From: Saccharomonospora cyanea NA-134
GTDB taxonomy: Bacteria; Actinomycetota; Actinomycetes; Mycobacteriales; Pseudonocardiaceae
Length of the DNA stretch: 64,000 nt
NCBI RefSeq assembly: GCF_000244975.1
Contig: NZ_CM001440.1
Location: forward strand, 4,696,325 to 4,760,324
Reading direction: 5' to 3'
A program made the position numbers and the translations under genes. The first letter of the stretch is position 1. Each line of letters begins with the position of its first letter. The notes under the pieces are model-generated. The model made no database searches and was not told the origin of the DNA. It saw only the letters and a list, made by a program, of their open reading frames with translations. This document shows positions 27,931 to 46,277 of this stretch, in pieces.

Positions 27931-28007
27931 GTCGTCCTCCATACACTCGACCAAACGACTGACCATAGTGTGCCCGATGCCGCGCACCGGGGGATATGGT
28001 GGTGACG

Positions 28008-30420: not shown

Positions 30421-30441
30421 TACGCAGCCTGCGGACACGGT
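30421..30441 (+). repeat. Single copy of the 21-nt dispersed repeat (locus A)
   Basis: TACGCAGCCTGCGGACACGG plus T. It matches the unit TAC-NNN-AAC-TGC-GGA-CAC-GCG found at three other places in the window and ends on the first base of the DUF742 stop codon. The rest of the 180-nt convergent gap (30261-30440) shows nothing else. Confidence 0.45.
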
Positions 30442-31010
30442 CACAGGGAACGGAGGCCGTTCAGGATCCGCTCCATGAAGTCGTGGGAGTCCCGGTCGGC
30501 CAGGACGAAACCCGGGCGCTGGATCTCCACCGCCCGAGCCTCGGACAAGTCGTCCACCAGCACCTTCACCACGCCCAGCGGCAACCGGGCGAACGCCGCG
30601 ATCTCGGCCACCGAGTGCACGTCGACGCACAGGTCGCAGATGAACCGCTGCTCCGGCGAGACCACACCCTCGTAGCGTCTGCCGCTGTCGGTGGTCACCA
30701 CCAGCGCTTCCAGCGCGAGTTCCTTCGCGGGCCTGGTGCGCCCACCGGTGCGCGCGTACGGCCGCACCAGCGAACGGTGCGTGAAGTGCGGCGGCGCGGG
30801 TGCCACCCGTGGCCGCGGCGGAACGCCCGCCGGCTGGCGGGCGTTCCCCGCCAAACCGGCAGGCCCGCCCTGTCCCGACTGCTGACGTACCCGCTTGGCG
30901 AGCTGCGTGACACCGGAGACACTGCTCAGGTCGAACCTGCTGGGGTGGTCGAATCCTTCTCTGTCCGTGGGCTTGTTCAGCGCCTCCCACTCGTCCACGC
31001 CGCTACCCAC
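30441..31010 (-). CDS. DUF742 conservon protein (copy 1)
   Basis: A 189-residue protein from GTG 31010. The first 75 residues are variable and Pro/Gly-rich. The DUF742 core follows: [40 protein letters not shown] and [20 protein letters not shown], the last part resembling a winged helix. In actinobacterial conservons (cvn) such proteins are encoded with a sensor kinase, a roadblock protein and a GTPase. It overlaps the roadblock gene upstream by 8 nt. It shares its core with the copy at 32123. Confidence 0.85.
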
Positions 31011-31422
31011 GCACGCCGCCCGAAAGCTTCGCCCGCAGTTCAGGGGTGAGCTGCTGGCCGACCCGGTCGACGAGCAGTGTCATCTCGTAGGCCACCGTGC
31101 CGATGTCGGCGCCGGGCGACGCCAGCACGGCCAGGCACGATCCATCGCTGATCGACATGAGGAACAGGTACCCGTTCTCCATCTCGACCACGGTCTGGTT
31201 CACCGTGCCGCCGTCGAAGCACCGTGCGGCGCCGTGCGTCAGTGAAACGAGCCCGGAGGCCACTGCGGACAGCTGTTCGGCACGAGCCACGGGCAGGTCC
31301 TGCGAGTTCGCGAGCAGTAGCCCGTCGGCCGACACCACCACGGCGTGCGCCGCCCCCGGCACCCGACGCACGAAGTCGGTGATGAGCCAGCCGAAGCTGC
31401 CCTGGTGGGCTGATGCCGTCAC
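31003..31422 (-). CDS. Roadblock/LC7 domain protein (copy 1)
   Basis: A 139-residue protein from GTG 31422 behind a GGAGGGACA site. The single roadblock/LC7 domain reads [55 protein letters not shown] and [20 protein letters not shown]. In conservons and in MglA/MglB systems such proteins bind small GTPases and act as regulators or GAPs. It is very similar to the protein at 33005, indicating a duplication. It lies 111 nt after the GTPase gene and is coupled to the DUF742 gene downstream. Confidence 0.9.
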
Positions 31423-31533
31423 TGTCCCTCCTAGCCTCCCGCACGCTGTAGCGGCAAGACTATTAGCCAGGTCAATCCTGTCGAGCCCGATTCGCCCGAC
31501 CGCCACACTCAATCACGCCGGTGGCCCAACAAA

Positions 31534-32142
31534 TCACCCAGCACGCAGCGCCGTGTCGTGGGCGATGGCGTGCTGGACGATGGAGATGAGCACCTGCTTG
31601 GCCGATTCCCGGTCCCGGGCGTCACAGGCCATGATCGGCACGGAGGGCGAGATGGTCAACGCGTGCCGGACATCCTCGATCTGGTGGTGCAGCAGCCGGT
31701 CGAAGCAGTTGATGGCCACGATGTACGGCAGCTTGCGGTTCTCGAAGAAGTCGATCGACGGGAAGGCGTCGGCGAGCCTTCTGGTGTCGACCAGCACCAC
31801 GGCCCCGATGGCACCGTACGCGAGGTCGTCCCACATGAACCAGAAGCGATGCTGACCCGGTGTGCCGAAGATGTAGAGCACCAGGTCGGAGTCCAGCGTG
31901 ATCCTGCCGAAGTCCATCGCGACTGTGGTGGTCATCTTGTTCGGCGTCTGCGACAGGTCGTCGACCGAGACGCTCGCTTCGGTCATGGATGCTTCGGTGG
32001 TCAGGGGGTCGATCTCCGACACCGCCCCCACGAGCGTTGTCTTACCGACACCGAAACCACCGGCGACCACGATCTTGGCCGACTGGGTCGGGCCTGACGT
32101 CGTCGGCACGGCAGCGGACGCGTCAAATTCTCCGAAGCCCAC
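31534..32142 (-). CDS. Conservon small GTPase (CvnD-like)
   Basis: A 202-residue Ras-like GTPase from GTG 32142. The P-loop is GGFGVGKTT (about 28-36). Switch regions are around TTVAMDFGRITLDSDLVLYI and FGTPGQHRFWFMWDD (G3, with the Gln kept), and the base-binding motif is NCFD (variant NKxD). It is the only GTPase gene in the island, although two roadblock and two DUF742 genes are present. In conservons the GTPase relays the kinase signal. It overlaps the DUF742 gene upstream by 20 nt. Confidence 0.9.
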   Translation of the reverse strand: MGFGEFDASAAVPTTSGPTQSAKIVVAGGFGVGKTTLVGAVSEIDPLTTEASMTEASVSVDDLSQTPNKMTTTVAMDFGRITLDSDLVLYIFGTPGQHRFWFMWDDLAYGAIGAVVLVDTRRLADAFPSIDFFENRKLPYIVAINCFDRLLHHQIEDVRHALTISPSVPIMACDARDRESAKQVLISIVQHAIAHDTALRAG

Positions 32143-32899
32143 TGAGAACCCTTTCCATGAACTCGATACTGGGCCGGTCTCCCACCATGGAGGAGGACGC
32201 GGAGTGCACGAGCACTAGACCGAGACCGGCAACGTCACCAACGAGGATTCGCACGACACCGAGCGGCATTCTGAGCAGCGCGGCCACCTCGGCGACCGAC
32301 CTGGTGTCGAGGCACAACCCGCAGATGGAGCGGTGTTCGGGCACCCGCACCTTCTCCAGCCGCCTGCCCCGCTCGCTGGTCGAGATGAGGGCCTCGATGG
32401 CCAGGTCGTAGTCCGGCTTCGTCCGGCCCCTGGTGCGGAAGTACGGGCGGACGAGGCCCGAAGACTCCTCCACCTCCTCCTCGGGCTCGACGTCGCGGCG
32501 GTGGCGGGGCGTCGGGGAGGGTGACACCTCGCCGGACATCGGACCCGGATCGTACCCACCCGTGTCGTAGGCGGAGCGCAGGTAGCCGTCATCACGCGAC
32601 GACGGGCCCTCGGCGCTGGAGAACCCGCCGCCGCCCATTCCGTACAGTTCGGCACCGGGTCCGGACAGCAGTGAGGAGTGTCCGTAGTCGGAGAGGTCGA
32701 AGTCCGCCGGCCCGGGGGAGTCGAGGCCGCCGGAACGCAACCACTCCCCCGTGTCGAGGGGGTCGTCGACTCTCCGCGAAGGACGACGTCCACGGCTGCC
32801 ACGGCCGCTGAACGCCACGTCCTCCGGCTCGCTCGGCCAACCCCCAGCCGCACGGTCTCTGTCGAGCCGTCGATCACCTCGTGAGTGCCCGGAATCCAC
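32123..32899 (-). CDS. DUF742 conservon protein with long N-terminal extension (copy 2)
   Basis: A 258-residue protein. The first 145 residues are low-complexity (Gly, Ser, Asp, Arg) and likely disordered. The DUF742 core reads SGLVRPYFRTRGRTKPDYDL, VPEHRSICGLCLDTRSVAEV and MPLGVVRILVGDVAGLGLVL. It is encoded between the second roadblock gene and the GTPase, overlapping the GTPase by 20 nt. Presumed adaptor of the conservon membrane complex. Confidence 0.85.
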   Translation of the reverse strand: MDSGHSRGDRRLDRDRAAGGWPSEPEDVAFSGRGSRGRRPSRRVDDPLDTGEWLRSGGLDSPGPADFDLSDYGHSSLLSGPGAELYGMGGGGFSSAEGPSSRDDGYLRSAYDTGGYDPGPMSGEVSPSPTPRHRRDVEPEEEVEESSGLVRPYFRTRGRTKPDYDLAIEALISTSERGRRLEKVRVPEHRSICGLCLDTRSVAEVAALLRMPLGVVRILVGDVAGLGLVLVHSASSSMVGDRPSIEFMERVLSGLRRI

Positions 32900-33004
32900 G
32901 GCGGTCTCCTCAGTGTTTTGTCGCCGAACTGCGTTTTCTCACCGAACTGCGTTGTTGCGTTTCGAAAGCGTGTGCGTTTCGCGAGCGTCCGCTCAGCCGC
33001 TCGC

Positions 33005-33460
33005 CTACCGGCGCGAGCCCTGCAACTGGGCCCGCAGCTCCGGTGTCATCTGCTGTCCGACACGGTCCACCAGCAGCGTCATCTCGTAGACGACGAGGCC
33101 GATGTCACTGTCGGGAGCGCCGAGCACCGCGAGGCAGGAGCCGTCGGACACCGACATGAGGAACAGGAAGCCGTTCGCCATCTCGACGACGGTCTGCGCC
33201 ACGGGGCCGCCCTCGAACACCTGCGCGGCACCGCGCGCGAGGCTCGTGAGTCCCGACGCCACGGCGGCGAGCTGGTCGGCCCTGTCCTTGGGCAGACCCC
33301 GCGAAGCCGCCAACAGCAGCCCGTCCGCGGAGACGACCACGGCGTGGGCCGCACCGGGCACCCGGTGCACAAAGTCGGTGATGAGCCAAGCGAAGCTGCC
33401 TTGCTGTCCGGAGTTGCCCTTTTTCGGCGCACCCGGATGCGCTGAACCCGCGCGTGTCAA
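33005..33460 (-). CDS. Roadblock/LC7 domain protein (copy 2)
   Basis: A 151-residue protein. The start is a TTG at 33460, supported by GAAGGAG 6-7 nt before it and the absence of a nearer ATG/GTG with such a site. The domain ([74 protein letters not shown]) is close to the copy at 31003. It follows the NIT-kinase gene by 3 nt, so kinase, roadblock, DUF742 and GTPase form the classic conservon order. Confidence 0.9.
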
Positions 33461-33463
33461 CTT

Positions 33464-36400
33464 CTACTCCTTCGCCCCGTTGTGACGGGTGTCGTTGCCC
33501 GTCTCGTCGAACTGCTCACTCTGGGCCGATGGCTCCTTGAGCGCGTGGCGACCGCTGGTGTAACCACGCTGGAAGCTCTTCATGCGGTTGCGCGCCGCCT
33601 CGGCCGACCTGGCGACGGCACTGCGTCCCGGTTCCCCGACGGTGGTGTCGGCGAACGCGTTCCCCCGGCTCGGGGAGACCGAGCCCGGCACCAAGTATGC
33701 GTTGGGCACGCGCTTGGGCAGACCGGCAGGCGTGATCTCCTCGTGCTTGTCCTCGAGCAGCGCGTGGGCGGCCTGCCAGCCGGTGTCGGACACACTGTGC
33801 CAGCCTGCGTCCTTCGCACTGCCCCTGGTGTCGTCGGTTCTCTCCTCGGCGTCTCCGTTCATCGCGACACCCGCCGTCGTGCCGGTGTCGGGGTCGGAAA
33901 CCGAACCCGGCTCGGCACCCCACGCCTCGCCGTCGGTCTCGACGGCCGTGTCCGGCTCGAGCGGTTCCTCCTCGCTGAACCACCGCGACAGCACTGACTG
34001 GTAGATCGGCAGTCTCCTGGTGGGTACATCGTCCTCCAGTGCGCTTCCGTCGCCGCCGACCGACGGAGCGCGGGACTCCGAGTCCTCCCTCGGCACGTAG
34101 CGCGTTTCCTCGTTCGGCGACGCCTCGGTGACATGGCCGTCGTTCTCGTCGCCGTCCGGCGACTCGACCGGCCACTGCGGCTCCTCGGAACCGGTGGGCG
34201 GGGCCGGCTGCGCGATCTCGGTCGCGGGTTCCGGCTCGGGCTCCGGCGCGGCCGGGCTGACGAACGGTCCCGCCGCCTTGCCGACGCCCCCGACGAGGTC
34301 GTCGAGACTGATGGGCTGGGCCAGCGGACGCAGGCCGTTCTCCAGGTGCGAGCCCGACGACGGGGCCCCTTCCGGCTCCGGCGGCGAGGGCTGCGGCGAG
34401 GGCTGCGGCGGCGACGCGATCGGCGGAGGCGGCGGCGCGGCCGGACGATCGGCGTCCACCTGCGGCTTGCGTGGCGCGGGCAGCGGCGGCACACCGGACG
34501 GCGGAGGCGGGGTGTCCACACGCGATGGCAGGGACGTCTCGGCCCTGGTCTCCCGTGGAGCGATGGGAGGCGCCGGCGGTGACGACACCGTCGAGGGTGT
34601 TCCGGTGAGCAGGTCGCTGGGCACGACGACGCGGGCGATCACACCACCGTCGATGTCCTCGTTCTCCCGCAGCCGCACCTCGATGCCGTGTCGCTTCGCC
34701 AGCCGCGCCACCACGTACAGACCCATACGCCGGGTCACCGACACGTCCAGGTCCGGCGGATCGGCGAGCCGCTCGTTGGCCTCGGCGAGCTGCTGTTCGG
34801 ACATACCGACACCGCGGTCGGTGATCTGCACGGCGAGCGACGTGCGACGCGTGACCACGGCCCGCACGCTGATCTTGGTGTCCGGTTCGGAGAAGTAGGT
34901 CGCGTTGTCGAGCAGTTCCGCGAGCAGGTGCACGAGGTCGTGCACCGCCCTGCCGTGCACCGCCACGTCGGGAATGGTGCCGAGCTCCACGCGGGCGTAC
35001 TGCTCGATCTCCGACACGGCGGCACCGATGACATCGGCGGCCGGCACCGGTTTGGACATCGTCTTGGTGAGGCCGGCGCCCGAGAGCACCAGCAGGCTCT
35101 CACCGTTGCGGCGCAGCCGGGTCGCGAGGTGGTCGAGCTCGAACAGGCTCGCGAGTTGGTCCGGGTCCTGCTCGTCCGACTCGAGCCGGTCGATGACCCC
35201 GAGCTGGCGTTCCACGAGTCGCTGGCTACGGCGCGAGAGGTTCACGAAGATGCCGTTGACGTTCTCGCGCAGCAGCGCCTGCTCGGCGGCGAGGCGGATG
35301 GCTCGTTCGTGGACGACGTCGAACGACCGCGCGACTTCGCCGATCTCCTCGCGCGTGTGCACGGGAACCGGCGTGACGGCGTCGCGGGACGCCTCCATGG
35401 GGTTGGGGTCGGCGAGGATGCGCCGCACCGTCTCGGGAAGCCGGACGTAGGCGACCTCCAGCGCACTCGACCGCAGCGTGCGCAGCGGCCGGGTGAGGGC
35501 CCTCGCGACCATCAGCGTCAGTGCCACGGTGGCGACCAGGGTCACGGTCATGAGCCCGAAGAACAACCAGGCGGCCTGGCTGGCCTGCCCGGCGAGCGTC
35601 TCGGCGTGCTCGCGCAGTTCCGCGAGGAGCTGGCTCTCCATCTCGCGCATCATGTCGGCCGTGTCGCTGCCGTCACTGAACAACTGCCGCGAGCTGATGT
35701 TCAGCCCTCCGGGCGAGTCGATGGCGGAGTAGGCGGTGGCGATGATCCGGGCCCGGTTGTCGACCTCGGCGCCGGACACGGTGTCGAGGTAGCGCTGCTG
35801 CTCCTCCAGAGTGGCGTTGGAGTTGAAGTTGCCGATCGCGGCGTCGGCGCTCGCCTGCGACGACATCGAGCGGGACAGCAGGTCGGCGACGAAGGCGTGG
35901 TTGCCCGCGGCGATCTGGAGGATCGCGTTCTCCCGCGACGTGTATTCCTTCGCCTCGGTGATGGCCTGCACCGTGGTGCCTCGACGCAGCAGCTCGCGGT
36001 CGGTCACGGACAGGTTCACCGTGCGGCCGAGGTTGACGAGCGGGTCGAGGATCGAGTTGTAGGTGGTGTGGACCGTCAGCGCCGGGATGTTCGTGGTGTC
36101 GATCTTGCCCCGGAGGGGATCCAGAGCGTTGAGTCGCTGGACCGCGCGCTCGTAGGTGCGCTGCAGTTCCTCGTCACCGAGGTCCCGTTCGACGAGCATG
36201 TTCCGAAGGCGCGTCACCTCCTCGTTCACCTTCGCCGTCTGCTCCTCGACGGTGTTGGTGTCGACCCAGTCCGACGACATGTCGACGGCCTGGAGCGTCC
36301 GCTCCTTCTGGAGTTCGTGCACCAGTGTCGTGACCTGCTGCGCCAACTCGACCTGCGTGACCGTTTCGCCGAACTCCGACGCGTCGCTCAGCTCCGAGAT

Positions 36401-36634
36401 CGCGCGGAGGCTACCGAAGGCCAGCGCGGTCAACAGCGGAATGATCAGGACGACGGCGAGCTTGTAACGCAGCGGCCAGTTGCTCAGTCTCCATCGAGAC
36501 GTCGTGACCTCGGAGCCGACGCCGACAGGTTCGGCCGCGTCCCGGCGAGCCGGATTCTCCTGTCCCTCCTGGTTCTGGGCGCCGTCCTGGTCGGATCCCA
36601 GCCCATCCCCGTCCGCGGTCTCAGTCTTGGGCAC
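33464..36634 (-). CDS. NIT-domain sensor histidine-kinase-like protein (HK1)
   Basis: About 1056 residues from GTG 36634; GTG 36718 would add 28 residues of less coding-like sequence. Two membrane helices (about 58-76 and 355-377) flank an extracellular NIT (nitrate/nitrite-sensing) domain rich in helices. A HAMP-like linker follows, then FVNLSRRSQRLVERQL and FELDHLATRLRRNGESLLVL, and a HATPase with N-box AELLDNATYFSE, DRGVGM and GLYVVARLAKRHG. The last 370 residues are Pro/Glu-rich and disordered except for short motifs at 33977-34027 and near 33540-33600. It heads the conservon operon. Nitrate as the signal is a family-level guess. Confidence 0.88.
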   Translation of the reverse strand: MPKTETADGDGLGSDQDGAQNQEGQENPARRDAAEPVGVGSEVTTSRWRLSNWPLRYKLAVVLIIPLLTALAFGSLRAISELSDASEFGETVTQVELAQQVTTLVHELQKERTLQAVDMSSDWVDTNTVEEQTAKVNEEVTRLRNMLVERDLGDEELQRTYERAVQRLNALDPLRGKIDTTNIPALTVHTTYNSILDPLVNLGRTVNLSVTDRELLRRGTTVQAITEAKEYTSRENAILQIAAGNHAFVADLLSRSMSSQASADAAIGNFNSNATLEEQQRYLDTVSGAEVDNRARIIATAYSAIDSPGGLNISSRQLFSDGSDTADMMREMESQLLAELREHAETLAGQASQAAWLFFGLMTVTLVATVALTLMVARALTRPLRTLRSSALEVAYVRLPETVRRILADPNPMEASRDAVTPVPVHTREEIGEVARSFDVVHERAIRLAAEQALLRENVNGIFVNLSRRSQRLVERQLGVIDRLESDEQDPDQLASLFELDHLATRLRRNGESLLVLSGAGLTKTMSKPVPAADVIGAAVSEIEQYARVELGTIPDVAVHGRAVHDLVHLLAELLDNATYFSEPDTKISVRAVVTRRTSLAVQITDRGVGMSEQQLAEANERLADPPDLDVSVTRRMGLYVVARLAKRHGIEVRLRENEDIDGGVIARVVVPSDLLTGTPSTVSSPPAPPIAPRETRAETSLPSRVDTPPPPSGVPPLPAPRKPQVDADRPAAPPPPPIASPPQPSPQPSPPEPEGAPSSGSHLENGLRPLAQPISLDDLVGGVGKAAGPFVSPAAPEPEPEPATEIAQPAPPTGSEEPQWPVESPDGDENDGHVTEASPNEETRYVPREDSESRAPSVGGDGSALEDDVPTRRLPIYQSVLSRWFSEEEPLEPDTAVETDGEAWGAEPGSVSDPDTGTTAGVAMNGDAEERTDDTRGSAKDAGWHSVSDTGWQAAHALLEDKHEEITPAGLPKRVPNAYLVPGSVSPSRGNAFADTTVGEPGRSAVARSAEAARNRMKSFQRGYTSGRHALKEPSAQSEQFDETGNDTRHNGAKE

Positions 36635-37214
36635 CGCTTTACCACCATCGTTGTCCGAGCCGGATCTCAAAGCCGGCGTCCTGGCCGAGCACTTGCTACT
36701 CTCCGCACACACTTCCACGACTGCTGGTCACGGTTGTCGCAACCAGGCAGCGGAAGCATGCCGGGGAGCCCCCAGATGGGTCAATCCTCGTTTGGGCTAC
36801 CAGTGCACCGAAGCGTCCGCAGCGCCTACTTGGCCGACGTGATCGACCTGGATTACACCAAACAGTCATCCGCCCGTCACCACTTCGGTGTTCCGTGACC
36901 CCCAGTTGAGACACAGAATGTAGCGAAGACCCCCCAGAGACGTAAGCCCTCCCGGGCTGGTTCTCGTTGGACTTCACTGAGCGTTTGCCTCTTAGGGAGC
37001 ACGCATCCGCACCGCACGACTAAACCCAGAGTTAATTAGACCACACGCTCAACCGCCCGAACGAGTGGACCATGACCACCCATAGATTGCGGTCAGGTAC
37101 GCATTGTGAGTAGAGCGCCGAATCTCTACAGTAACCGTTGCTCACTGGGCGACGTGGGAGGGCATCGCGCTCAGTCAGCAGATCACCAAACTGGGTATTG
37201 AACCTCACTGAGGA
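36635..37214. other. 580-nt divergent intergenic region between HK1 and the ABC operon
   Basis: Noticeably richer in A/T than its surroundings from about 36840 to 37200. It should hold the promoters of both units. TTGAGA near 36906 and several AT-rich hexamers are visible, but no clear paired -35/-10 or operator dyad stands out. No coding capacity supported. Confidence 0.4.
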
Positions 37215-38246
37215 GTGGCATTGCTTCGACAAGGCACCACGACGAGAAGGAAGTCCAGACCACATCGCCTGGCCGCCGCTGTGGTGACCGCGGGTCTTCT
37301 CGCTTCCGCCAGCGGTTGCGGCCTGTTGAGTGGCGAAGAGGACACTTCGACGTCGCAGGACGGTAACAGTTCTGTCGAAAAGTCCACCATCACGGTCGCT
37401 CACCTGCCCTCCATCGACGTCGCACCCCTTTACATCGCGAAGAACAAGGGGTATTTCGAGGACGAAGGACTCGACGTCAAGATCGAGCAGGCGGCCAGTG
37501 GTCAGGCCGCGACGACGAAGATGATCGGCGGTGACGCCGACATCGTCCAGTCCAGCTATGTGCCGTTCCTGCTCGCACACACGGGCGGCAGCGCCGAACT
37601 CAGGATCGTCGCCGACGCGGTCTCCGCGGCTCCGGACACCTTCGTGCTCGTCGCGAAGAAGGGCGGCGACATCAAGTCGATCGACGACCTCGAAGGCAAG
37701 AAGATCGCGGTGTCGGCGCAGAAGACCATCTCCGACACCATCGTGATGTCGGCGATGAAGGCGAACGGCCTCGACTACGAGAGTGTCGAGTTCGTCCAGA
37801 CGTCGTTCCCGGACATCTCCTCGGCCGTCGCGAGGGGCCAGGTGGACGCGGGGCTGCTCATCGAGCCGTTCCTCACGATCGGCGCCCAGGAGCACGGCGT
37901 CACCCCGATCGCGGACGTTGCCACCGGCCCGACGAAGGACTTCCCGCTCGCCGGTTACGGGGCGCTCGCCGAGTTCGTCGAGCAGAACCCCAAGACGGTC
38001 GCCGCCTTCCAGCGGGCGATGGAGCGCGCCACGGAGGATGCCCAGGACCGTGAGGTGATCGAGCCCGTCATCCAGGAGACCGCCAAGCTGGACGCGGCCA
38101 CGGCCTCGCTGGTGAACCTGCCCAACTTCCACTCCTCGGTGGACAGCTCGCGCCTCCAGCGGGTTCCCGACCTGATGGTGGAGTTCGGGCTGCTGAAGGA
38201 GAAGCTCGACATCGGACCGCTACTGGTCCAACCGAGCACCACCTGA
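37215..38246 (+). CDS. ABC substrate-binding lipoprotein, NMT1/SsuA/NrtA family (SBP1)
   Basis: About 343 residues. A basic n-region and hydrophobic stretch end in the lipobox SASGC, so it is a lipoprotein. The mature protein opens ITVAHLPSIDVAPLYIAKNK followed by GYFEDEGLDVKIEQAASGQA, then GGDADIVQSSYVPFLLAHTG and GQVDAGLLIEPFLTIGAQEH. This is the NMT1/THI5-like fold used for nitrate, sulfonates, taurine or thiamine precursors. GTG 37215 and TTG 37221 are possible starts; the GAGGAG spacing fits the TTG better. First gene of a four-gene importer operon divergent from HK1. Confidence 0.9.
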   Translation: MALLRQGTTTRRKSRPHRLAAAVVTAGLLASASGCGLLSGEEDTSTSQDGNSSVEKSTITVAHLPSIDVAPLYIAKNKGYFEDEGLDVKIEQAASGQAATTKMIGGDADIVQSSYVPFLLAHTGGSAELRIVADAVSAAPDTFVLVAKKGGDIKSIDDLEGKKIAVSAQKTISDTIVMSAMKANGLDYESVEFVQTSFPDISSAVARGQVDAGLLIEPFLTIGAQEHGVTPIADVATGPTKDFPLAGYGALAEFVEQNPKTVAAFQRAMERATEDAQDREVIEPVIQETAKLDAATASLVNLPNFHSSVDSSRLQRVPDLMVEFGLLKEKLDIGPLLVQPSTT

Positions 38247-38247
38247 C

Positions 38248-39018
38248 GTGCGTCCTCTCGTACGGAACCTCGCCGGCCTGATCGCCTTCCTCGGACTCTG
38301 GGAACTGGTGGTCAGGCTCGGCCTGGTCAGGGAAGAAGACGTTCCACCGGCCACGGTGGTTCTGAGCCGGATCGTGGAGCTCCTCGGGCAGGAGGAGTTC
38401 CTGCGCGACGTGATCGCCAGCCTGCTGGCGTGGGCACTGTCGCTGGGGATCGCCGCGGCGATCGGCGTTCCGCTGGGACTCGTCCTCGGGAACTTCCCGC
38501 GCGTGCGGGTCGCCACCCAGGCGGTCGTGGAGTTCCTGCGACCGATCCCGTCGGTGGCTCTGATCCCGCTCGTGCTCGTGGCCATCGGTGGCGGGCCCGA
38601 GGCGAAGATCTCTCTCGCGGTGTACGCCGCGTTGTGGCCGATCCTCTACAACACCATCTACGCCTTCGACGAGATCGACCCGCTGCTGATCGACACCGCG
38701 CGGTCGTGCGGTGTGGGCAGGGCGGGCATCCTCACCTCCGTGGCACTGCCCCACGCGGCTCCGTTCGTGTTCACGGGGATCCGGATCTCGGCGTCGGTGG
38801 GGCTCATCGTCATCGTGAGCACCGAGTTCATCGCGGGAGCGAACGTCGGCATCGGAAGTGTCATCCTCGAGGCCGCCCACGGTGCGGGCAGAACGGACAT
38901 CGTGCTCGCGGGCACCGTGGTGGCGGGGCTCATCGGCTACCTCGCCAACGAGGGCCTCGAACGGCTCGGTGGAAGGCTGTTCAGGTGGCACAAGGCGACC
39001 ACGGCGGAGGTGGCATGA
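38248..39018 (+). CDS. ABC transporter permease 1 (SsuC/TauC/NrtB family)
   Basis: A 256-residue permease from GTG 38248, one base after the SBP1 stop. About six hydrophobic helices. The family core is FLRPIPSVALIPLVLVAIGG and the EAA loop DTARSCGVGRAGILTSVALP. It ends TTAEVA, and its stop overlaps the ATG of a 24-codon reading frame. It should form half of the membrane pore with the permease at 39086. Confidence 0.9.
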   Translation: MRPLVRNLAGLIAFLGLWELVVRLGLVREEDVPPATVVLSRIVELLGQEEFLRDVIASLLAWALSLGIAAAIGVPLGLVLGNFPRVRVATQAVVEFLRPIPSVALIPLVLVAIGGGPEAKISLAVYAALWPILYNTIYAFDEIDPLLIDTARSCGVGRAGILTSVALPHAAPFVFTGIRISASVGLIVIVSTEFIAGANVGIGSVILEAAHGAGRTDIVLAGTVVAGLIGYLANEGLERLGGRLFRWHKATTAEVA

Positions 39019-39089
39019 GCGAGGATCGCTACCCGCGCATGACCACCGACCGGGTGCGGGTGTCCCGCAAGACACAGGAGGTGGCATGA
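39015..39089 (+). CDS. 24-residue open frame between the two permease genes
   Basis: ATG 39015 overlaps the TGA of permease 1 (ATGA), and its own TGA overlaps the ATG of permease 2 at 39086 (ATGA). It encodes MSEDRYPRMTTDRVRVSRKT plus QEVA. The start sites at both ends share the same GAGGTGGCATGAGC sequence, so this could be a duplicated translation-initiation region or a coupling peptide that lets ribosomes pass from one permease to the other. No family match. Expression unproven. Confidence 0.4.
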   Translation: MSEDRYPRMTTDRVRVSRKTQEVA

Positions 39090-39907
39090 GCAGGACAGCA
39101 GGTGCCGTCAGGACCTTCCTGTTGAAGTGGTCGCTCGCCATCGGGCTCGTCGTGTTGTGGGAGCTGGCGACTCTGGCCGCGGGAAGCGCGTTCTTCCCCC
39201 GGCCGACGGAGATCGTGGTGGCGGCGTTCGACCTGTGGTTCTCCGGTCCGGCCTCCCAGCTCTTCCTCGCGGAGAGCGTGTTCGAGGACGTGCTGCCGAG
39301 CCTGGGCAGGGTCTTCGGCAGTTGGGCGATCGCGGTGGTGCTCGGCGTGGCGCTGGGCACTGTCCTGGGCCGGTCGCAGACGGCGTTGGACTACACGGGC
39401 CCGCTGCTGTCGTTCATGCGTGCCGTCCCACCGCCCGCGTTGATCCCGGTTTTCCTGGTGCTGTTCGGTATCGACAACACCATGAAGGTCGTGACGATCG
39501 TGTTCGGTTCGATCTGGCCCATCATCCTGAACACCGTGGACGGGGTGCGTTCGGTGAACCCGTTGCAGCAGGAGACGGCCCGGTCGTTCCGTACGCCGCG
39601 CCACTACTGGATCACGATGGTCGTGTTGCCCGCGGCCATGCCGAAGATCTTCGCGGGTCTGCGGCTGAGCCTGTCGCTCGCGCTGATCCTCATGGTGATC
39701 TCGGAGATGGTGGGGACCACCAACGGGATCGGGTTCGAACTGATGCTCGCGCAGCAGGGCTTCGACTTCACGGTGATGTGGGCGTGGATCGTGCTGCTCG
39801 GGGTGCTGGGCTACGGGCTCAACGCGTTGCTGCTCGCGGTGGAACGCCGGGTGCTGTCCTGGCAGCCCACGCGGGGCACCGCCGAGGCCAAGACGACGGG
39901 AGCATGA
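39086..39907 (+). CDS. ABC transporter permease 2 (SsuC/TauC/NrtB family)
   Basis: A 273-residue permease with about six helices. The core reads FMRAVPPPALIPVFLVLFGI and FGSIWPIILNTVDGVRSV, and the EAA loop is ETARSFRTPRHYWITMVVLP. An AGGAGGT site precedes ATG 39086. It is related to permease 1 but only distantly, so the pore is a heterodimer, unlike most SsuC systems that use one permease gene. The ATPase gene follows after 1 nt. Confidence 0.9.
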   Translation: MSRTAGAVRTFLLKWSLAIGLVVLWELATLAAGSAFFPRPTEIVVAAFDLWFSGPASQLFLAESVFEDVLPSLGRVFGSWAIAVVLGVALGTVLGRSQTALDYTGPLLSFMRAVPPPALIPVFLVLFGIDNTMKVVTIVFGSIWPIILNTVDGVRSVNPLQQETARSFRTPRHYWITMVVLPAAMPKIFAGLRLSLSLALILMVISEMVGTTNGIGFELMLAQQGFDFTVMWAWIVLLGVLGYGLNALLLAVERRVLSWQPTRGTAEAKTTGA

Positions 39908-39908
39908 C

Positions 39909-40706
39909 ATGGCAACAATGCTGGAGGTGTCCGGCCTCTACCACCGCTACGGCGGCGGAGAGGGCGCACACCTCGCGGTGAACGACCTCACCTTCACCGT
40001 GGAGACCGGGCAGCTCGCGTGCATCGTGGGGCCGTCCGGGTGTGGCAAGTCGACGATGCTGCGCTGCATCTCGGGGCTGATCAAACCGTCCGGTGGTGAG
40101 GTGTCGCTGCACGGGGACCGCGTGGACGGCGTTCCCGAGGACCTCGCCGTGGTCTTCCAGGACTACAGCCGGTCGCTGTTCCCCTGGCTGACGGTGCGCC
40201 AGAACGTGGAGTTCCCCCTGCGCTGGCGCGACATCGACAAGGCGGAGCGCCGCAGCCGGGCGGAGGAGGCTCTGGAGTGGGTGAACCTGCCCGGGGTGGC
40301 GAACAAGTACCCGTGGCAGCTCTCCGGCGGTATGCAGCAACGGGTGTCGATCGCCAGGGCGCTGGCGAGACGGCCCGCGCTGCTGCTGATGGACGAGCCG
40401 TTCGCCTCGGTGGACGCGCAGACCCGGTTCGAGCTGGAGGACCTGCTGAGGAAGGTGCAGACCCAGAACGAGAGCACCGTCCTCCTGGTCACCCACGACA
40501 TCGACGAGAGCGTCTACCTCGGCGACCGGGTGCTCGTCCTGTCGAAGTCGCCGGCCACGATCGTGGCCGACCTGACGGTGGACCTTCCCGCCGAGCGCGA
40601 CCAGATCACGACCCGGGAGTCCCCCGAGTTCGTGTCGATGCGTGCGGAGGTGGCGAGGCTGCTGCACAGCGGGACCAAGGCGCCCGTGGAGGTCGGCGGA
40701 GACTGA
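39909..40706 (+). CDS. ABC transporter ATP-binding protein (SsuB/TauB/NrtD family)
   Basis: A 265-residue ATPase. Walker A is GPSGCGKST, Q-loop VFQDYSRSLFPWLTV, signature LSGGMQQRVSIARAL, Walker B LLLMDEPFASVD and switch LLVTHDIDESVYLGDRV. The family imports nitrate, sulfonates or similar anions. It ends the operon; HK2 is convergent 90 nt further on, and the gap shows no clear terminator. Confidence 0.92.
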   Translation: MATMLEVSGLYHRYGGGEGAHLAVNDLTFTVETGQLACIVGPSGCGKSTMLRCISGLIKPSGGEVSLHGDRVDGVPEDLAVVFQDYSRSLFPWLTVRQNVEFPLRWRDIDKAERRSRAEEALEWVNLPGVANKYPWQLSGGMQQRVSIARALARRPALLLMDEPFASVDAQTRFELEDLLRKVQTQNESTVLLVTHDIDESVYLGDRVLVLSKSPATIVADLTVDLPAERDQITTRESPEFVSMRAEVARLLHSGTKAPVEVGGD

Positions 40707-40796
40707 GGGATTCCGGCACGACGGACGGTTCGGCTCGCGGCGCCTCGCCTGGTTCCCCGGCCGGACATCCGTTGTGTGAGGGCCTCCTGGCGTGGG

Positions 40797-43448
40797 TCAG
40801 TCGGTGCGCGTGTGGCGGCCTCGCCGCACACCGCGCTGCAGGCTCGTCATACGCGCCCTGACCGCCTCAGGTGAGCGGTTCACGGGCGGCGGGCGTTCCC
40901 CACGCCGATCGACGACACCGTGTCGGGGCGGATGCGGCTTCGGCACGGTGTCGTCGTCTTCTTCGGACAGTGCTGACGCGATCGCCCCGGACACCACGGG
41001 CGTGGGTTCGGTCGGCTCGGAGTCCACGCGGAAGTCCACAGCGGGTTCCGGCTCCACCGGCTCGTCCGGCCACCGGACGTCCTCGGCGCCCGGGACGCTC
41101 CCCGAGTCGGGGAACCACTTGGACAGCACGGCCTGGTAGGCGGGCAGCCGGTCGGTGGGGACCTCCTCCTCCAGCGCGGGAGGGTGCCGGGCGTCGTCGT
41201 CCTCCGTGGGCCAGGCGGGTTGCGCGCCCAGCTCCACCGTCGTCCGACGCGGCGCCGGCTCTGGTTCGACGTCATCGAACTCGTCCCGGGCGGAGTCCCA
41301 GACGGACGGCGGCACGTCCTCGTCGGGCCACTCGACCGACAGCGGCGGGGCGGGCGGAACGGTTCCGACCGGCTCGTCGGCCGCTCCGGTCACCTCTTCC
41401 TCGTCCTCCACACGCCCGGGGTCGGAGGACCGTGACGCGGCGGACGTCGACACGGGCAGTTCGATGGCTTCGGGAGTGTCGGGCTCCACCAACTCGGCGG
41501 GCACCAGCACCGTCGCCGTGAGCCCGCGTAACTCGGCCGCCGACAGCCGCACCTCGATGCTGTGCCGTCGCGCGAGCCTGCCCACGACGTAGAGCCCCAT
41601 CCGGCGCGACACCTCGACGTCCACGTCGGGCGGTTCGGCCAGGCGCGTGTTCGCCCGTCTGATCTCCGTCTCGGGCATGCCCGCGCCGCGATCGGTGATC
41701 TCGATGCGCCACTGCTTTTCGCGCGTCACCGAGCTGACCACCGACACCTGCTCGTGGTCCGGCGAGTAGGCCGTGGCGTTCTCGAACAACTCCGCGATCA
41801 CGTGGATGAGGTCGGCGGCCGCGTCACCGCGTACCGAGAGCATCGGCGGGGTCTCCACGGAAATGCGCTGGTAGTGCTCCACCTCGGACAGCGCGGCACC
41901 GATGACCTCCGAGGCGGGCACCGACCCCGGCAGCGGCCGTCCCGCCTCCTCCCCGGCGAGCACGAGCAGGTTCTCACTGTTGCGGCGCATCCGCGTGGCC
42001 AGGTGGTCGAGTTCGTACAGCCCGCCGAGGATTTCGGGGTCCTGCTCGTGTTCCTCCATGCGGTCGAGCACGGTGAGCTGCCGCTCCACGAGGTCCTGGC
42101 TGCGCCGGGAGAGGTTGACGAACATCGAGTTGACGTTCTCCCGCAGCATGGCCTGCTCGCCCGCGAGCCTCACCGCCTCGCCGTGGACGGCGTCGAACGC
42201 CCTCGCGACCTCGCCCAGCTCGTCGCGCGTGTGGACCGGTACGGGGTCCACGGCACGGGTGTAGATGTGCTCGGGAGTGGGGTGTTCCTCGGTGAGGATG
42301 TCGTCCACCGCCGCGGGCAGCCTGTTCTCGGCGACGTCGAGCGCACTGCTGCGCAGGGCCTTCAACGGCCGGAGCAGCGACCGCGTGATCACCACCGCGA
42401 GGATGGCCGCGAACAGCAACGCACCCAGCACCACACCGGCGTCGGTGCCCGCCGAGCGCCGCGCGTCGGCCGCGAGCGCGTCGGCGCGTTCCTGCAACTC
42501 CACCAGCAACGCCTCCTGGACCTTCTTGACCAGGTTGACGGTGTAGGTGGAGGCGCGGTCCCACTCGTCGGCGGACAGGCCGTCGAGGGTGCCGCCGTTC
42601 TCCGCCCGGGTCAGCACCGACTCCACGATCCCGTTGCCGAGGTCGACCACGAGCCCGATCACCGTGTCCGTGTACATGCGTTGCTGCTGCGGTGTCGCGA
42701 AGGTCATGAAGTCGTCCTTCGCGGCTTCCAGCTCCGCCTCCACCGCCAACAACGCGCGCTCGGTGTCCTCGGACAGGCTGCCCCGCGCCAGCGCCTGCGC
42801 CACCACGGCGCGCCTGACCGACATCTGGTCCTTCACCCTCGCCAGCGCGTTCGCCGCGAGGCGGGTTCCGGCCAGGTCACGGTCGACGGCGTTCGAGGCG
42901 AAGACCTCGCCCACACCGAGCACGTCCGAGATCAGCTCGCTGTACGACCGGAGCACCGCATCCGACGGCAGGGCGGTGTTCTCCCCCGCGTACCGCAGGC
43001 CCGTGAGCATGTCGATCTCGTGGTCGATGCGCTCGAAGGCGGAAAGCGACTCGGGGGAGAGCGCGTGCGCCGAACCGGCCAGCGCCCGATCGAACGCCCC
43101 GACAGCGGAGTCGACCTTCGCGCGCTGCTCCTTGATCTCGCCGAGCGACCCCTCCCGGCCGCCGGCCACATAACGCACGGTGAGATCGCGTTCCCGCTGC
43201 AGCTGGTGCACCACCTCGGCCACCGTGGTCTCCACCCTGACACGCTCGGCGCTCTCGCTGAACTTCGCCGCCCTGTCGAGGTCGTCGGTCGCCCTCATCG
43301 CGACGAGCACGAGCACCGCCACCGACGGGATGAGCAGCATGGCCACCAGCTTGGTGCGCAGCCGCCAGTTCCGGACCCGCCACCGGCCTCCCGCGCGCTC
43401 GCCGATCGCCGCGCCGTCCCTTACAGGACGTTCACTGCGAGGAGTCAC
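40797..43448 (-). CDS. NIT-domain sensor histidine-kinase-like protein (HK2)
   Basis: About 883 residues from GTG 43448, supported by an AAGGA site 7 nt upstream. It repeats the HK1 plan: a helix near residue 35-52, a NIT domain, a second helix, a HAMP-like linker, FVNLSRRSQDLVERQL, YELDHLATRMRRNSENLLVL and a HATPase (AELFENATAYSP, DRGAGM, GLYVVGRLARRHS). A disordered acidic tail follows, with the motif at 41112-41162 and an Arg-rich end (ARMTSLQRGVRRGRH). No roadblock, DUF742 or GTPase gene is directly attached; the extra copies at 30441-31422 may serve it. It is divergent from the SBP2 gene. Confidence 0.88.
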   Translation of the reverse strand: MTPRSERPVRDGAAIGERAGGRWRVRNWRLRTKLVAMLLIPSVAVLVLVAMRATDDLDRAAKFSESAERVRVETTVAEVVHQLQRERDLTVRYVAGGREGSLGEIKEQRAKVDSAVGAFDRALAGSAHALSPESLSAFERIDHEIDMLTGLRYAGENTALPSDAVLRSYSELISDVLGVGEVFASNAVDRDLAGTRLAANALARVKDQMSVRRAVVAQALARGSLSEDTERALLAVEAELEAAKDDFMTFATPQQQRMYTDTVIGLVVDLGNGIVESVLTRAENGGTLDGLSADEWDRASTYTVNLVKKVQEALLVELQERADALAADARRSAGTDAGVVLGALLFAAILAVVITRSLLRPLKALRSSALDVAENRLPAAVDDILTEEHPTPEHIYTRAVDPVPVHTRDELGEVARAFDAVHGEAVRLAGEQAMLRENVNSMFVNLSRRSQDLVERQLTVLDRMEEHEQDPEILGGLYELDHLATRMRRNSENLLVLAGEEAGRPLPGSVPASEVIGAALSEVEHYQRISVETPPMLSVRGDAAADLIHVIAELFENATAYSPDHEQVSVVSSVTREKQWRIEITDRGAGMPETEIRRANTRLAEPPDVDVEVSRRMGLYVVGRLARRHSIEVRLSAAELRGLTATVLVPAELVEPDTPEAIELPVSTSAASRSSDPGRVEDEEEVTGAADEPVGTVPPAPPLSVEWPDEDVPPSVWDSARDEFDDVEPEPAPRRTTVELGAQPAWPTEDDDARHPPALEEEVPTDRLPAYQAVLSKWFPDSGSVPGAEDVRWPDEPVEPEPAVDFRVDSEPTEPTPVVSGAIASALSEEDDDTVPKPHPPRHGVVDRRGERPPPVNRSPEAVRARMTSLQRGVRRGRHTRTD

Positions 43449-43637
43449 CTGGGCTTCCTTCGGGTCGTCCGCAGTCAGGCGGTCCGCTTTCGGAATCGGT
43501 CTGGAGAGTAACGGCACCCTCTCACATTCGAAGTGACACCCGTGGCCGGAGAAGGGTTGCCGACGCATGGTATTGCGTTGATCACCTTAAGCTCCACCCA
43601 TTGTCGGGATTTCACCCTGTGATCTTGGAGGCGGCCG

Positions 43638-44606
43638 GTGCGAACTCACGGGCGTGCGATTTTTGTCCTCGCTGTCGTTTTGCTGCTCGGTTCCTGCTCG
43701 CTGTTCACCGAAACGGAGGAATCCAGCGCACCTCGCCCGGAAAAGGCACGCCTCGTGGTGGGTGTGGGCAACGTCGTGGAGACCGCTCCGCTGCGGCTCG
43801 GCGTGTCCGAGGGCCTGTTCCGGCGCGGCGGCCTCGAGGTGGAACTGGCGGAGCTCGACGAGGACGACGACCCCGTGTCGCTGCTGACGGAGCAGGAGGT
43901 GGACGTGGTCTTCGCCAGTGACGTGGCGCTGTTCCGGGCCGCCGCCGAAGGCACGGAGATCAGCCTCCAAGGTGAGGCGTACGTGGCGGGAACGGGCTCG
44001 ATGGCACTCGTGACGCTTCCCGGCACCGCCTACACCGATCCGGGCAAGCTGCCCGCACCGCGAATCGCGGTTCCCACCCGCGACGGTCTGGGTTCACTGA
44101 CGTCCCGTTCCGCTCTCAAGGCCGCGGGCGTCGACCCCACCAAGATCACTTTCCAGGTCGTCCCGTTCGACGGAATGGTGGACGCATTGCGCTCGGGGCA
44201 AGTCGACGCCGCCTGGATGGTGGAGCCTTACCTCACCACCGCGCAGAAGGAACACGGCGCGCGCGTGCTCGCCGACTGTGCTCACGGCGCCACGGAGAGC
44301 TTTCCGATGTCGTCGTACGCGACCACCGAGCAATTCAGCTCGGCGAATCCACGGACGCTCACGCTGTTCCGCGAACTGCTGGCGAAGGCCCAGCAGAAGG
44401 GCGCCGACAGCGGTACCGTCCGCAGGTCGCTGCCCCGGCTCACCGACATCGACGACGTCACGGCTTCGGTCGTGTCGCTGGGTTCCTACCCGCAGGCCGT
44501 CCACGCCGAGCGGCTGCAGCGCGTCGCCGACCTCATGCACGGTTCGGGACTGCTCTCCGAACGCCTCGATGTGGCATCGCTGGTGCCGAAAGGGGAACTT
44601 CCCTGA
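43638..44606 (+). CDS. Orphan NMT1-like substrate-binding lipoprotein (SBP2)
   Basis: A 322-residue lipoprotein from GTG 43638 with a GGAGG site. Signal peptide and lipobox are LLLGSC at about residue 20. The mature fold parallels SBP1: VVGVGNVVETAPLRLGVSEG and LFRRGGLEVELAEL, then SGQVDAAWMVEPYLTTAQKE and AVHAERLQRVADLMHGSGLL. No permease or ATPase gene accompanies it; the XPB helicase gene follows. It may feed the importer at 38248-40706 or act as a ligand-sensing partner of HK2. Confidence 0.85.
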   Translation: MRTHGRAIFVLAVVLLLGSCSLFTETEESSAPRPEKARLVVGVGNVVETAPLRLGVSEGLFRRGGLEVELAELDEDDDPVSLLTEQEVDVVFASDVALFRAAAEGTEISLQGEAYVAGTGSMALVTLPGTAYTDPGKLPAPRIAVPTRDGLGSLTSRSALKAAGVDPTKITFQVVPFDGMVDALRSGQVDAAWMVEPYLTTAQKEHGARVLADCAHGATESFPMSSYATTEQFSSANPRTLTLFRELLAKAQQKGADSGTVRRSLPRLTDIDDVTASVVSLGSYPQAVHAERLQRVADLMHGSGLLSERLDVASLVPKGELP

Positions 44607-44630: not shown

Positions 44631-46277
44631 GTGACTGATGGCCCCCTGATCGTCCAGTCGGACAAGACGGTGCTGCTCGAGGTCGACCACGACCTCGCAG
44701 AGGACGCGCGCATCGCCATCGCGCCGTTCGCCGAGCTCGAACGCGCCCCCGAGCACGTCCACACGTACCGCATCACACCGCTGGCGCTCTGGAACGCCCG
44801 CGCCGCGGGGCACGACGCCGAGCAGGTGGTGGACGCCCTCACCACGTACTCCCGGTTCCCCGTGCCGCAGCCCCTGCTCATCGACGTCGTCGACACCATG
44901 GGCCGGTTCGGCAGGCTCCAGATCCAGAACCATCCCGCGCACGGCCTCGTGATGGCCACCACCGACCGCGCGGTGCTGGAGGAAGTCCTGCGGAACAAGA
45001 AGATCAGCCCGATGCTCGGCGCGCGCATCGACCCCGACACCGTCGTGGTCCACCCCTCCGAACGGGGCCGGTTGAAGCAGGCGTTGCTGAAGGTGGGCTG
45101 GCCCGCCGAGGACCTCGCCGGCTACGTGGACGGCGAGTCGCACCCGATGTCGCTGCAGGAGGACGGCTGGGCGTTGCGCGACTACCAGCGCAGGGCCGCC
45201 GAGGCGTTCTGGTCGGGCGGCTCGGGCGTGGTCGTGCTCCCCTGCGGCGCGGGCAAGACGCTGGTCGGCGCGGCGGCCATGGCGCGGGCCGAGGCCACGA
45301 CCCTCATCCTCGTCACCAACACCGTCGCGGGCAGGCAGTGGAAGCGCGAACTCGTCGAGCGCACCTCGCTCACCGAGGACGAGATCGGTGAGTACTCCGG
45401 TGAGAAGAAGGAGATCCGGCCCGTCACCATCGCCACGTACCAGGTCATCACCCGCCGGACCAAGGGCGAGTACAGGCACCTGGAGTTGTTCGACTCGCGC
45501 GACTGGGGGCTCGTCATCTACGACGAGGTGCACCTGCTGCCCGCCCCCGTGTTCCGCATGACCGCCGACCTGCAGTCACGGCGGCGACTCGGCCTCACCG
45601 CGACGCTCGTGCGCGAGGACGGCCGCGAAGGTGACGTGTTCTCCCTCATCGGCCCCAAGCGCTACGACGTCCCGTGGCGTGACATCGAGGCGCAGGGCTG
45701 GATCGCGCCCGCCGAGTGCGTCGAGGTCCGCGTCACGCTCACCGACGCCGAACGCCTCGCCTACGCCACCGCCGAGAGCGAGGAGCGCTACCGTCTGGCC
45801 TCCACCGCGCACACCAAGACCGGCGTGATCTCCTCGATCGTCGAGAAACACGCAGGCGAACCCACGCTGGTCATCGGCGCCTACCTCGACCAACTGGAGG
45901 AACTCGGCGCCGAGTTGAACGCGCCCGTGGTGCAGGGCTCGACGAGGAACAAGGAACGCGAGGCGCTGTTCGACGCCTTCCGCAGAGGCGAGATCGACAG
46001 GCTCGTGGTGTCGAAGGTCGCGAACTTCTCCATCGACCTGCCTGAGGCGTCGGTGGCCATCCAGGTGTCGGGCACGTTCGGCTCCCGCCAGGAGGAGGCA
46101 CAGCGGCTCGGCAGGCTGCTCCGGCCCAAGGGTGACGGGCGCCAGGCGCACTTCTACTCCGTCGTCGCCCGCGACACCGTCGACACCGAGTACGCCGCCC
46201 ACCGCCAGCGCTTCCTCGCCGAGCAGGGCTACGCCTACCGCATCGTCGACGCCGACGACCTGCTACGACCGCTGTGA
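44631..46277 (+). CDS. XPB/Rad25-type DNA repair helicase
   Basis: A 548-residue superfamily-2 helicase from GTG 44631 with an AGGAGG site. The N-terminal 180 residues carry the XPB-specific damage-recognition region (VHTYRITPLALWNARAAGHD). Walker A is PCGAGKT (204-210), DEVH is at 298-301, motif III LTATLVREDGR, and the C-terminal motifs include VSKVANFSIDLPEASVAIQV and QEEAQRLGRLLRPKG. It corresponds to mycobacterial ErcC3 (Rv0861c), a 3'-5' helicase. Its usual neighbour gene lies at 28008, on the other side of the signalling island. Confidence 0.93.
   Translation: MTDGPLIVQSDKTVLLEVDHDLAEDARIAIAPFAELERAPEHVHTYRITPLALWNARAAGHDAEQVVDALTTYSRFPVPQPLLIDVVDTMGRFGRLQIQNHPAHGLVMATTDRAVLEEVLRNKKISPMLGARIDPDTVVVHPSERGRLKQALLKVGWPAEDLAGYVDGESHPMSLQEDGWALRDYQRRAAEAFWSGGSGVVVLPCGAGKTLVGAAAMARAEATTLILVTNTVAGRQWKRELVERTSLTEDEIGEYSGEKKEIRPVTIATYQVITRRTKGEYRHLELFDSRDWGLVIYDEVHLLPAPVFRMTADLQSRRRLGLTATLVREDGREGDVFSLIGPKRYDVPWRDIEAQGWIAPAECVEVRVTLTDAERLAYATAESEERYRLASTAHTKTGVISSIVEKHAGEPTLVIGAYLDQLEELGAELNAPVVQGSTRNKEREALFDAFRRGEIDRLVVSKVANFSIDLPEASVAIQVSGTFGSRQEEAQRLGRLLRPKGDGRQAHFYSVVARDTVDTEYAAHRQRFLAEQGYAYRIVDADDLLRPL

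Follow-up and report, generated by a model that had tools for sequence, protein, structure and literature searches.

Substrate-binding lipoproteins encoded head-to-head with NIT-type conservon kinases in Saccharomonospora cyanea and its relatives: possible ligand-sensing subunits

Conservons, also called AGPS, consist of CvnA to CvnD, a kinase, a roadblock protein, a DUF742 protein and a small GTPase encoded in this order (PMC13343842, PMC8510531, PMC4316618). Their published accessories, the GAF protein CvnF and the P450 CvnE, go overwhelmingly with kinases that have no NIT domain, described in PMC13343842 as kinases that have no sensory domain. Kinases triggered by substrate-binding proteins (SBPs) are also well known (PMC9602780, PMC10384115): in CuaD-CuaS-CuaR a sensing SBP lipoprotein is encoded beside the kinase, with a separate transport SBP and ATP-binding cassette (ABC) operon next door, CuaD/CuaA being a precedent for SBPs with sensing and transport roles encoded side by side (PMC10384115), and further pairs are XylFII-LytS and BctC-BctE. 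Among actinobacteria, the SBP lipoprotein GlnH has been proposed to signal via a membrane protein in the GlnH-GlnX-PknG system (PMC9769921). Here we describe a locus of Saccharomonospora cyanea NA-134, contained in a window of 64,000 nucleotides (NZ_CM001440.1, positions 4,696,325 to 4,760,324; positions below are those of the window), in which two NIT-type histidine kinases of the conservon kind, HK1 and HK2, are each encoded head-to-head with an NMT1-type SBP, SBP1 and SBP2. No account of a conservon together with a substrate-binding protein was found in the open-licence literature, and such a partner would constitute a new accessory class, since the published accessories go with NIT-less kinases.

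Set against these systems, the HK1 unit has the conservon order of NIT kinase, roadblock, DUF742 and GTPase, with a transmembrane kinase that contains HATPase and the tail motif LPxR (its HAMP match, 21.7 bits, lies under the Pfam cutoff of 25), whereas the HK2 unit lacks a GTPase of its own as well as LPxR. As in published conservons, no response regulator was seen, nor was any DNA-binding regulator, among the 20 window open reading frames (ORFs), a subset, that were scanned with Pfam. Unlike CvnE and CvnF, the associated proteins are lipobox-bearing SBPs of NMT1 type, divergent from kinases that both carry NIT. The locus shares with three-component systems an SBP gene beside a kinase; whereas CuaDSR ends in a response regulator and GlnH-GlnX-PknG in a Ser/Thr kinase, here the kinase belongs to a G-protein module and has a NIT sensor domain. 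SBP1 has the operon layout of NMT1/SsuA-type ABC importers, from which SBP2 differs in that no transporter genes adjoin it.

We narrowly favour the reading that these SBP lipoproteins act as the extracytoplasmic ligand-sensing subunits of NIT-type conservon kinases. HK2 (40797-43568, minus strand; Pfam NIT 155.7 bits, HAMP 28.6 bits and HATPase_c, plus motifs) and the lone SBP2 (43638-44606, plus strand; NMT1 58.7 bits) are divergent, with start codons 69 bases apart across an intergenic region (43569-43637) holding blocks conserved in seven Saccharomonospora. HK1 (33464-36718, minus strand; NIT 132.5 bits, HATPase_c) is divergent from SBP1 (37215-38246, plus strand; NMT1 118.4 bits), the first gene of a string SBP1-permease-permease-ATPase laid out as an NMT1-type ABC importer. 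In each kinase two hydrophobic segments flank the NIT domain, and a DHp-type histidine motif and ATPase boxes are present; in HK1 the segments span residues 82-108 and 381-409, the motif ELDHLATRLRR stands at residue 527 and LPKR at residue 1000 in the tail. Each SBP has a signal peptide with a lipobox cysteine in its sequence, and Cys20 of SBP2 is invariant across an alignment of 19 SBP2 proteins. The whole genome, a single contig of 5,408,301 bases, gives four NMT1 and five NIT matches, of which two of each are at this locus, paired; as the pairing also recurs in other genomes, it is not due to chance.

The layout and its conservation can be read directly from related genomes (handles: genomes G, loci L, genera g, families f). 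Across 150 genomes of the family (Pseudonocardiaceae), the source genome included, 144 had some SBP2 match at E <= 0.001. Neighbourhoods were read for the 69 listed matches outside the source genome, 60 of them at the locus of ercC3, the helicase gene on the right of the window locus (58 with ercC3 in the region read; L099 and L105 placed by coordinates), and nine elsewhere. A NIT kinase is divergent from SBP2 within 1.5 kb at all 60 ercC3-linked loci, which represent one place by descent and are hence not independent; a permease lies within 2.5 kb downstream of SBP2 at none, and anywhere in the region at 17 (L080-L096). Among the nine other matches (L068, L071-L076, L078, L079) a conservon kinase adjoins two (L072 codirectional, L075 divergent), and none was found in the region read for the other seven. 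When genome contigs were scanned with a profile of the 19 aligned SBP2 proteins and the best 80 of 337 relatives examined, all 80 had a divergent NIT kinase, and in none did a permease follow downstream of the SBP within 2.5 kb; 17 had a permease anywhere in the locus and 77 had ercC3 downstream within it. These 80 include members of Saccharomonospora, Prauserella, Amycolatopsis, Lentzea, Saccharothrix, Kutzneria and Haloechinothrix, and they overlap partly with the 60, so that the counts are not additive. In overlapping sets of SBPs adjoining a kinase, 169/175 have a lipobox-type cysteine by the strict pattern and six by a near pattern. Forty of the remaining 89 family genomes were examined upstream of ercC3: kinase and SBP occur together in 21, an SBP without a kinase in the region in four (in three of these, L123, L138 and L141, the kinase is just beyond it), and neither in three (L129 and L130, where the two flanking helicase genes abut, and L147, at a contig end). 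The initial annotation of this DNA had taken the kinases and binding proteins for one uptake and sensing module; the pairing stood, but at 43 of the 60 SBP2 loci no permease occurs in the region read, so that sensing by such a pair can be separate from uptake.

Outside the family, 246 genomes of the class were searched and the best-SBP loci of 29 read. The nine SBPs scoring at least 139 bits (L222-L230) all have a NIT domain divergent within 1.5 kb; eight, from family f45, are followed by permeases and one, from f36 (L230/L206), is lone. A search for a NIT domain within 1.5 kb of the SBPs at 59-114 bits gave 0/20. The same outside genomes contain four second SBPs of at least 139 bits, one of them divergent from a NIT kinase, for a total of 10/13. 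In f45, matches to ercC3 and to xpbN, our name for the left flanking helicase gene, are at most 4.7 kb apart, and the SBP is found 2.2 and 2.6 Mb off on the same contig in two genomes, while six have it on a different contig; the pair thus occurs at a second genomic place as well, and the head-to-head arrangement, which the initial annotation had singled out, held up as a conserved unit. The one second SBP with a kinase (f45, region L334:6-4816) is lone: on one side of it is the divergent NIT kinase, on the other the GTPase end of another conservon, which runs convergently.

SBP and NIT sequences also diverge in a correlated manner. Over 57 loci, distances of SBP2 and the HK2 NIT domain (NIT2) correlate with r 0.92, and the partial r given the kinase domain and ercC3 is 0.71 (0/500 permutations as high), compared with 0.17 for SBP-kinase (2/500) and 0.22 for SBP-ercC3. 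With one locus per genus (20 genera), the values are 0.65 for SBP-NIT (0/2000) and 0.29 for SBP-kinase (24/2000). When the flanking helicase, DUF742 and roadblock were added in varying sets, by rank and linear correlation, SBP-NIT ranged from 0.61 to 0.75, SBP-kinase from -0.14 to 0.33 and SBP-flanking helicase from -0.16 to 0.07, and NIT against the kinase domain within a single protein gave -0.01 to 0.34.

From the gene pairing and this correlated divergence we infer that SBP2 docks on the NIT domain. We envision that SBP2, tethered to the outer membrane face by a cysteine whose lipidation is predicted from the lipobox, would bind a small ligand, as its family suggests, and, loaded or empty, would dock on the HK2 NIT domain between the two membrane segments assigned by hydropathy. 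Docking would alter kinase activity, and the signal would pass via roadblock and DUF742 to the small GTPase or another output, as published conservons lead one to expect. HK1 and SBP1 would follow the same design, with SBP1 also serving the ABC importer, thereby coupling uptake and sensing. The invariant Q111, E113 and E196-P197 of the SBP2 alignment are candidate functional residues. A bolder picture, which we put forward tentatively and regard as somewhat the less probable outcome, is that of a bacterial G-protein receptor family with a separate lipid-anchored sensor taken from ABC importers, in which NIT would serve chiefly for docking and SBP2 for sensing alone. Different conservons may recruit different binding-protein classes, NMT1 here and Peripla_BP_6 in another actinomycete family, where Pfam places a Peripla_BP_6 SBP with ABC genes divergent from a NIT conservon kinase (L202:5808-11440). 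If the sensing role is true, the SBPs would be the outside ligand sensors that these poorly understood G-protein switches were missing, SBP-triggered signalling would reach beyond response regulators to a Ras-like GTPase module, and the conserved binding protein would offer a direct handle on the switch through ligand screening and deletion.

A number of observations weigh against a sensing role. Gene proximity alone can mislead: in Pseudomonas, the SBPs whose genes adjoin those of AgtS and AruS showed, according to PMC11113362, no role in activating either. Among the 40 further family loci, 12 have a kinase without an SBP (L117-L120, L133, L134, L142, L143, L148, L150-L152), and six of the 21 with both have HK1/SBP1-ABC and HK2 but no SBP2 (L113-L116, L121, L122). 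L126, in G027, is a counterexample within the sequence covered: the 13 kb upstream of ercC3 contain no kinase, and past ercC3 come an SBP, an ATPase, two permeases and a further SBP, the 5.7 kb read there being equally free of a kinase. Outside the family, the second SBP of L331 stands at the GTPase end of a conservon with no NIT domain upstream, and the sequence read around those of L332 and L333 contains no kinase. The initial annotation had regarded independent occurrence of SBP/ABC genes and kinases as contrary to its proposal, and this is seen in part, in three of the 13 close SBPs outside the family and at the ercC3 locus of G027. The conservons of the other three NIT kinases of the source genome have no SBP of this family in the region (L109-L111), and 18/20 NIT-kinase regions outside the family have no adjacent SBP by the checks made, namely the SBP profile on all and Pfam on the neighbours in L202, L206 and L218, a coverage that other SBP classes may escape; the profile found one adjacent SBP (L206). 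On these sequences, only part of the NIT conservons are paired with an SBP.

The correlations call for similar caution. Partial r reaches 0.30 and 0.39 for SBP-DUF742, up to 0.30 for SBP-ercC3 and up to 0.47 for NIT-flanking helicase, and because SBP and NIT evolve faster than the flanking helicase, their distances may share saturation. In a cross-pair control on 16 genomes from five genera, SBP1 correlates with NIT2 as well as with NIT1; SBP2 favours NIT2 over NIT1 in 3/4 settings and SBP1 favours NIT1 in 1/4. Correlated divergence may thus partly reflect two fast-evolving proteins. The ratio of NIT to kinase rates shows no overall difference between kinases with and without an SBP (two-sided p 0.82); NIT branches are longer without an SBP (one-sided p 0.03), kinase branches less so (0.06). 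Within the HK2 subclade, lineages with SBP2 have ratios of 0.6, 0.6, 0.6, 0.6, 0.8 and 2.0, and those without 1.1, 1.8, 1.8, 1.9 and 2.1, a post hoc subset that we do not use as evidence.

The alternative that survives best, unlikely on balance yet of real weight, is that NIT senses its ligand directly and the conservon controls the divergent SBP(-ABC) genes, the SBP acting in transport alone and the lone SBP2 feeding an ABC transporter encoded elsewhere. Divergent genes with a common intergenic region are a frequent regulator/target layout. At 13 of the 40 further family loci (three with two tandem SBPs) the only kinase stands directly head-to-head with an SBP-ABC operon, the subfamily includes SBP/ABC genes that lack a neighbouring kinase, and HK2-clade NIT domains keep both arginines of the NasR type described below. 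As for transport in trans, a search with permease 2 in 21 lone-SBP genomes found a permease elsewhere that is 47-59% identical in seven and 39-44% identical in eight, but none above 113 bits in the remaining six (G081, G017, G036, G070, G029, G006); a transporter in trans thus appears possible in many genomes and unlikely in some. Further points against control of SBP genes by the kinase are the lack of a DNA-binding or response regulator among the ORFs scanned, an SBP-NIT correlation exceeding that of SBP with kinase, and the retention of the kinase beside SBP2, with no adjacent permease, at 60/60 and 80/80 loci.

A second alternative, that NIT senses nitrate or nitrite directly, the ABC operon takes up this anion or a related one, and SBP and NIT bind it independently, we consider improbable. 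Nitrate binders are known in both families, NasR for NIT and NrtA for NMT1, and the HK2 NIT domain aligns with NasR (PDB 4akk) at E 8.8e-8, although NasR itself joins NIT to an RNA-binding domain. At helix 1, the arginine (LQxER) is present in 79/79 HK2-clade and 32/33 HK1-clade kinases. At helix 5, where we mapped the position of NasR R176, named in PMC7496416, by our own alignment to 4akk, arginine is kept in 77/79 HK2-clade kinases but in 0/33 of the HK1 clade, which have Asn in 23, Asp in seven, Gly in two and Ile in one; HK1 of the window has Asn and HK2 keeps both arginines. Nitrate sensing, with which the initial annotation had credited the NIT domains, may hold for HK2, whereas for HK1 sensing in the NasR manner is doubtful, given the absence of the helix-5 arginine in all 33 kinases. 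Neither SBP reaches the cutoff of any curated SBP model of NCBIfam: on the SsuA sulfonate model TIGR01728 (cutoff 163.5 bits), the best subfamily for SBP1, SBP1 scores 123.4 and SBP2 64.7, and the SBP1 matches among NCBIfam models include no nitrate SBP model. The nearest solved relatives are 3qsl (an uncharacterised exported protein) and THI5 for SBP1, and 3qsl only for SBP2. Linkage by inheritance alone, the genes having simply stayed together between two conserved helicase genes, would fit the single shared place of the 60 family loci, but it is very improbable: f45 and, with a lone SBP, f36 have the divergent pair at other places, SBP and kinase remain where the adjacent permease and ATPase are missing, and neither kinase nor SBP is present where xpbN and ercC3 abut (L129, L130).

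Those two genes encode a Helicase_C_3 protein (xpbN, 27996-30260, plus strand, by Pfam; Rv0862c-like in the initial annotation) and the ercC3/XPB helicase (44631-46277, plus strand, by Pfam). The intervening 14 kb had been thought to be inserted. Elsewhere in the order, eight genomes were compared, and the distance from xpbN to ercC3 is at most 120 bases in six, 1.5 kb in one and 3.1 kb in one. A gain is therefore plausible, whereas an event specific to the window is not, the module being family-wide; by this spacing, its presence is best read as a gain in the family or a loss elsewhere and not as an event of the source genome alone. In genus g34 (L040, L041) about 7 kb separates the SBP from ercC3.

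ORF calls and Pfam scans bore out every gene named at the outset. Behind SBP1 these are permease 1 (38248-39018; BPD_transp_1), permease 2 (within 38858-39907, its start codon not settled; BPD_transp_1) and the ATPase (39909-40706; ABC_tran 121.4 bits), all on the plus strand. In genus g16 (L090-L094) two tandem SBP1-type genes stand ahead of the permeases. The HK1-SBP1 intergenic region (36719-37214) is long and has several blocks conserved in seven Saccharomonospora; a promoter scan of it returned no promoter-like site, and Rfam and tRNA scans of the window returned no match.

On the minus strand, HK1 is followed by roadblock A (CvnB; 33005-33460; Robl_LC7 89.7 bits), DUF742 A (CvnC; 32123-32899; DUF742 105.7 bits) and the small GTPase (CvnD; 31534-32142), assigned by P-loop family matches with G1 GGFGVGKT, G3 GTPG and G4 NCFD. 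Beyond it come roadblock B (31003-31512; Robl_LC7 87.9 bits) and DUF742 B (30441-31010; DUF742 107.8 bits), proposed partners of HK2; from there up to the flanking helicase no GTPase was found, and at the far side the ABC operon adjoins the end of HK2. DUF742 B clusters with the DUF742 proteins of GTPase-less conservons (support 84-91) and DUF742 A with those of other nested-type HK1 loci (support 100); roadblock A is also assigned by its tree, and roadblock B, weakly resolved in the tree, by its position. Such GTPase-less conservons with a lone SBP occur at L046, L047, L064, L065, L069, L098, L101, L102, L107 and L108. HK2, roadblock B and DUF742 B were thus probably once one string of this type, and the window would be two old pairs nested, HK1-roadblock A-DUF742 A-GTPase with SBP1-ABC having later come to lie between HK2 and roadblock B-DUF742 B; the nested order is found in genera g21, g41 and g15 as well. 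This reading fits the adjacent duplicated conservons, one without its GTPase by loss, reported in PMC4316618. That both kinases share the GTPase, as had been supposed, finds no evidence here, for the HK2 clade has its own string without a GTPase and HK2 lacks LPxR; sharing is possible. In 11/11 tested genomes with GTPase-less loci, a GTPase 64-70% identical is encoded elsewhere.

Trees of 128 SBP rows and 127 kinase rows, with SH-aLRT support from a short search and several forks open, place HK1 (33 rows) and HK2 (79 rows) in separate clades. Apart from L077, the lone SBPs at ercC3 group on the side of SBP2, and those linked to ABC genes on that of SBP1. The kinase clades correspond to these sides, HK1 to SBP1 and HK2 to SBP2; the exceptions are seven basal rows of the HK2 clade (g25 twice, g46, g6, g14, g35, g38) and three kinase rows outside both clades (g11, g24, g43), all with SBP1-side SBPs. 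A recent tandem duplication of the pairs was rejected, both splits predating the genera.

The LPxR motif lies in the C-terminal extension of conservon kinases, where its function is described as unsettled (PMC4316618). At loci L040-L152, leaving out the window kinases (HK1 with the motif, HK2 without) and with 10 kinases undetermined, it is present in 75/75 kinases that have their own GTPase and absent from 33/40 that do not; the stricter LPxRxPxA is absent from 12/76 GTPase-bearing and present in 2/41 GTPase-less kinases. This suggests that the tail motif belongs to the GTPase branch, as a lead and not a test, since the GTPase state changes only three times on the tree. Other tail motifs, LPxYQxVLSxWF and RxRMxSxQRG, are retained in HK2.

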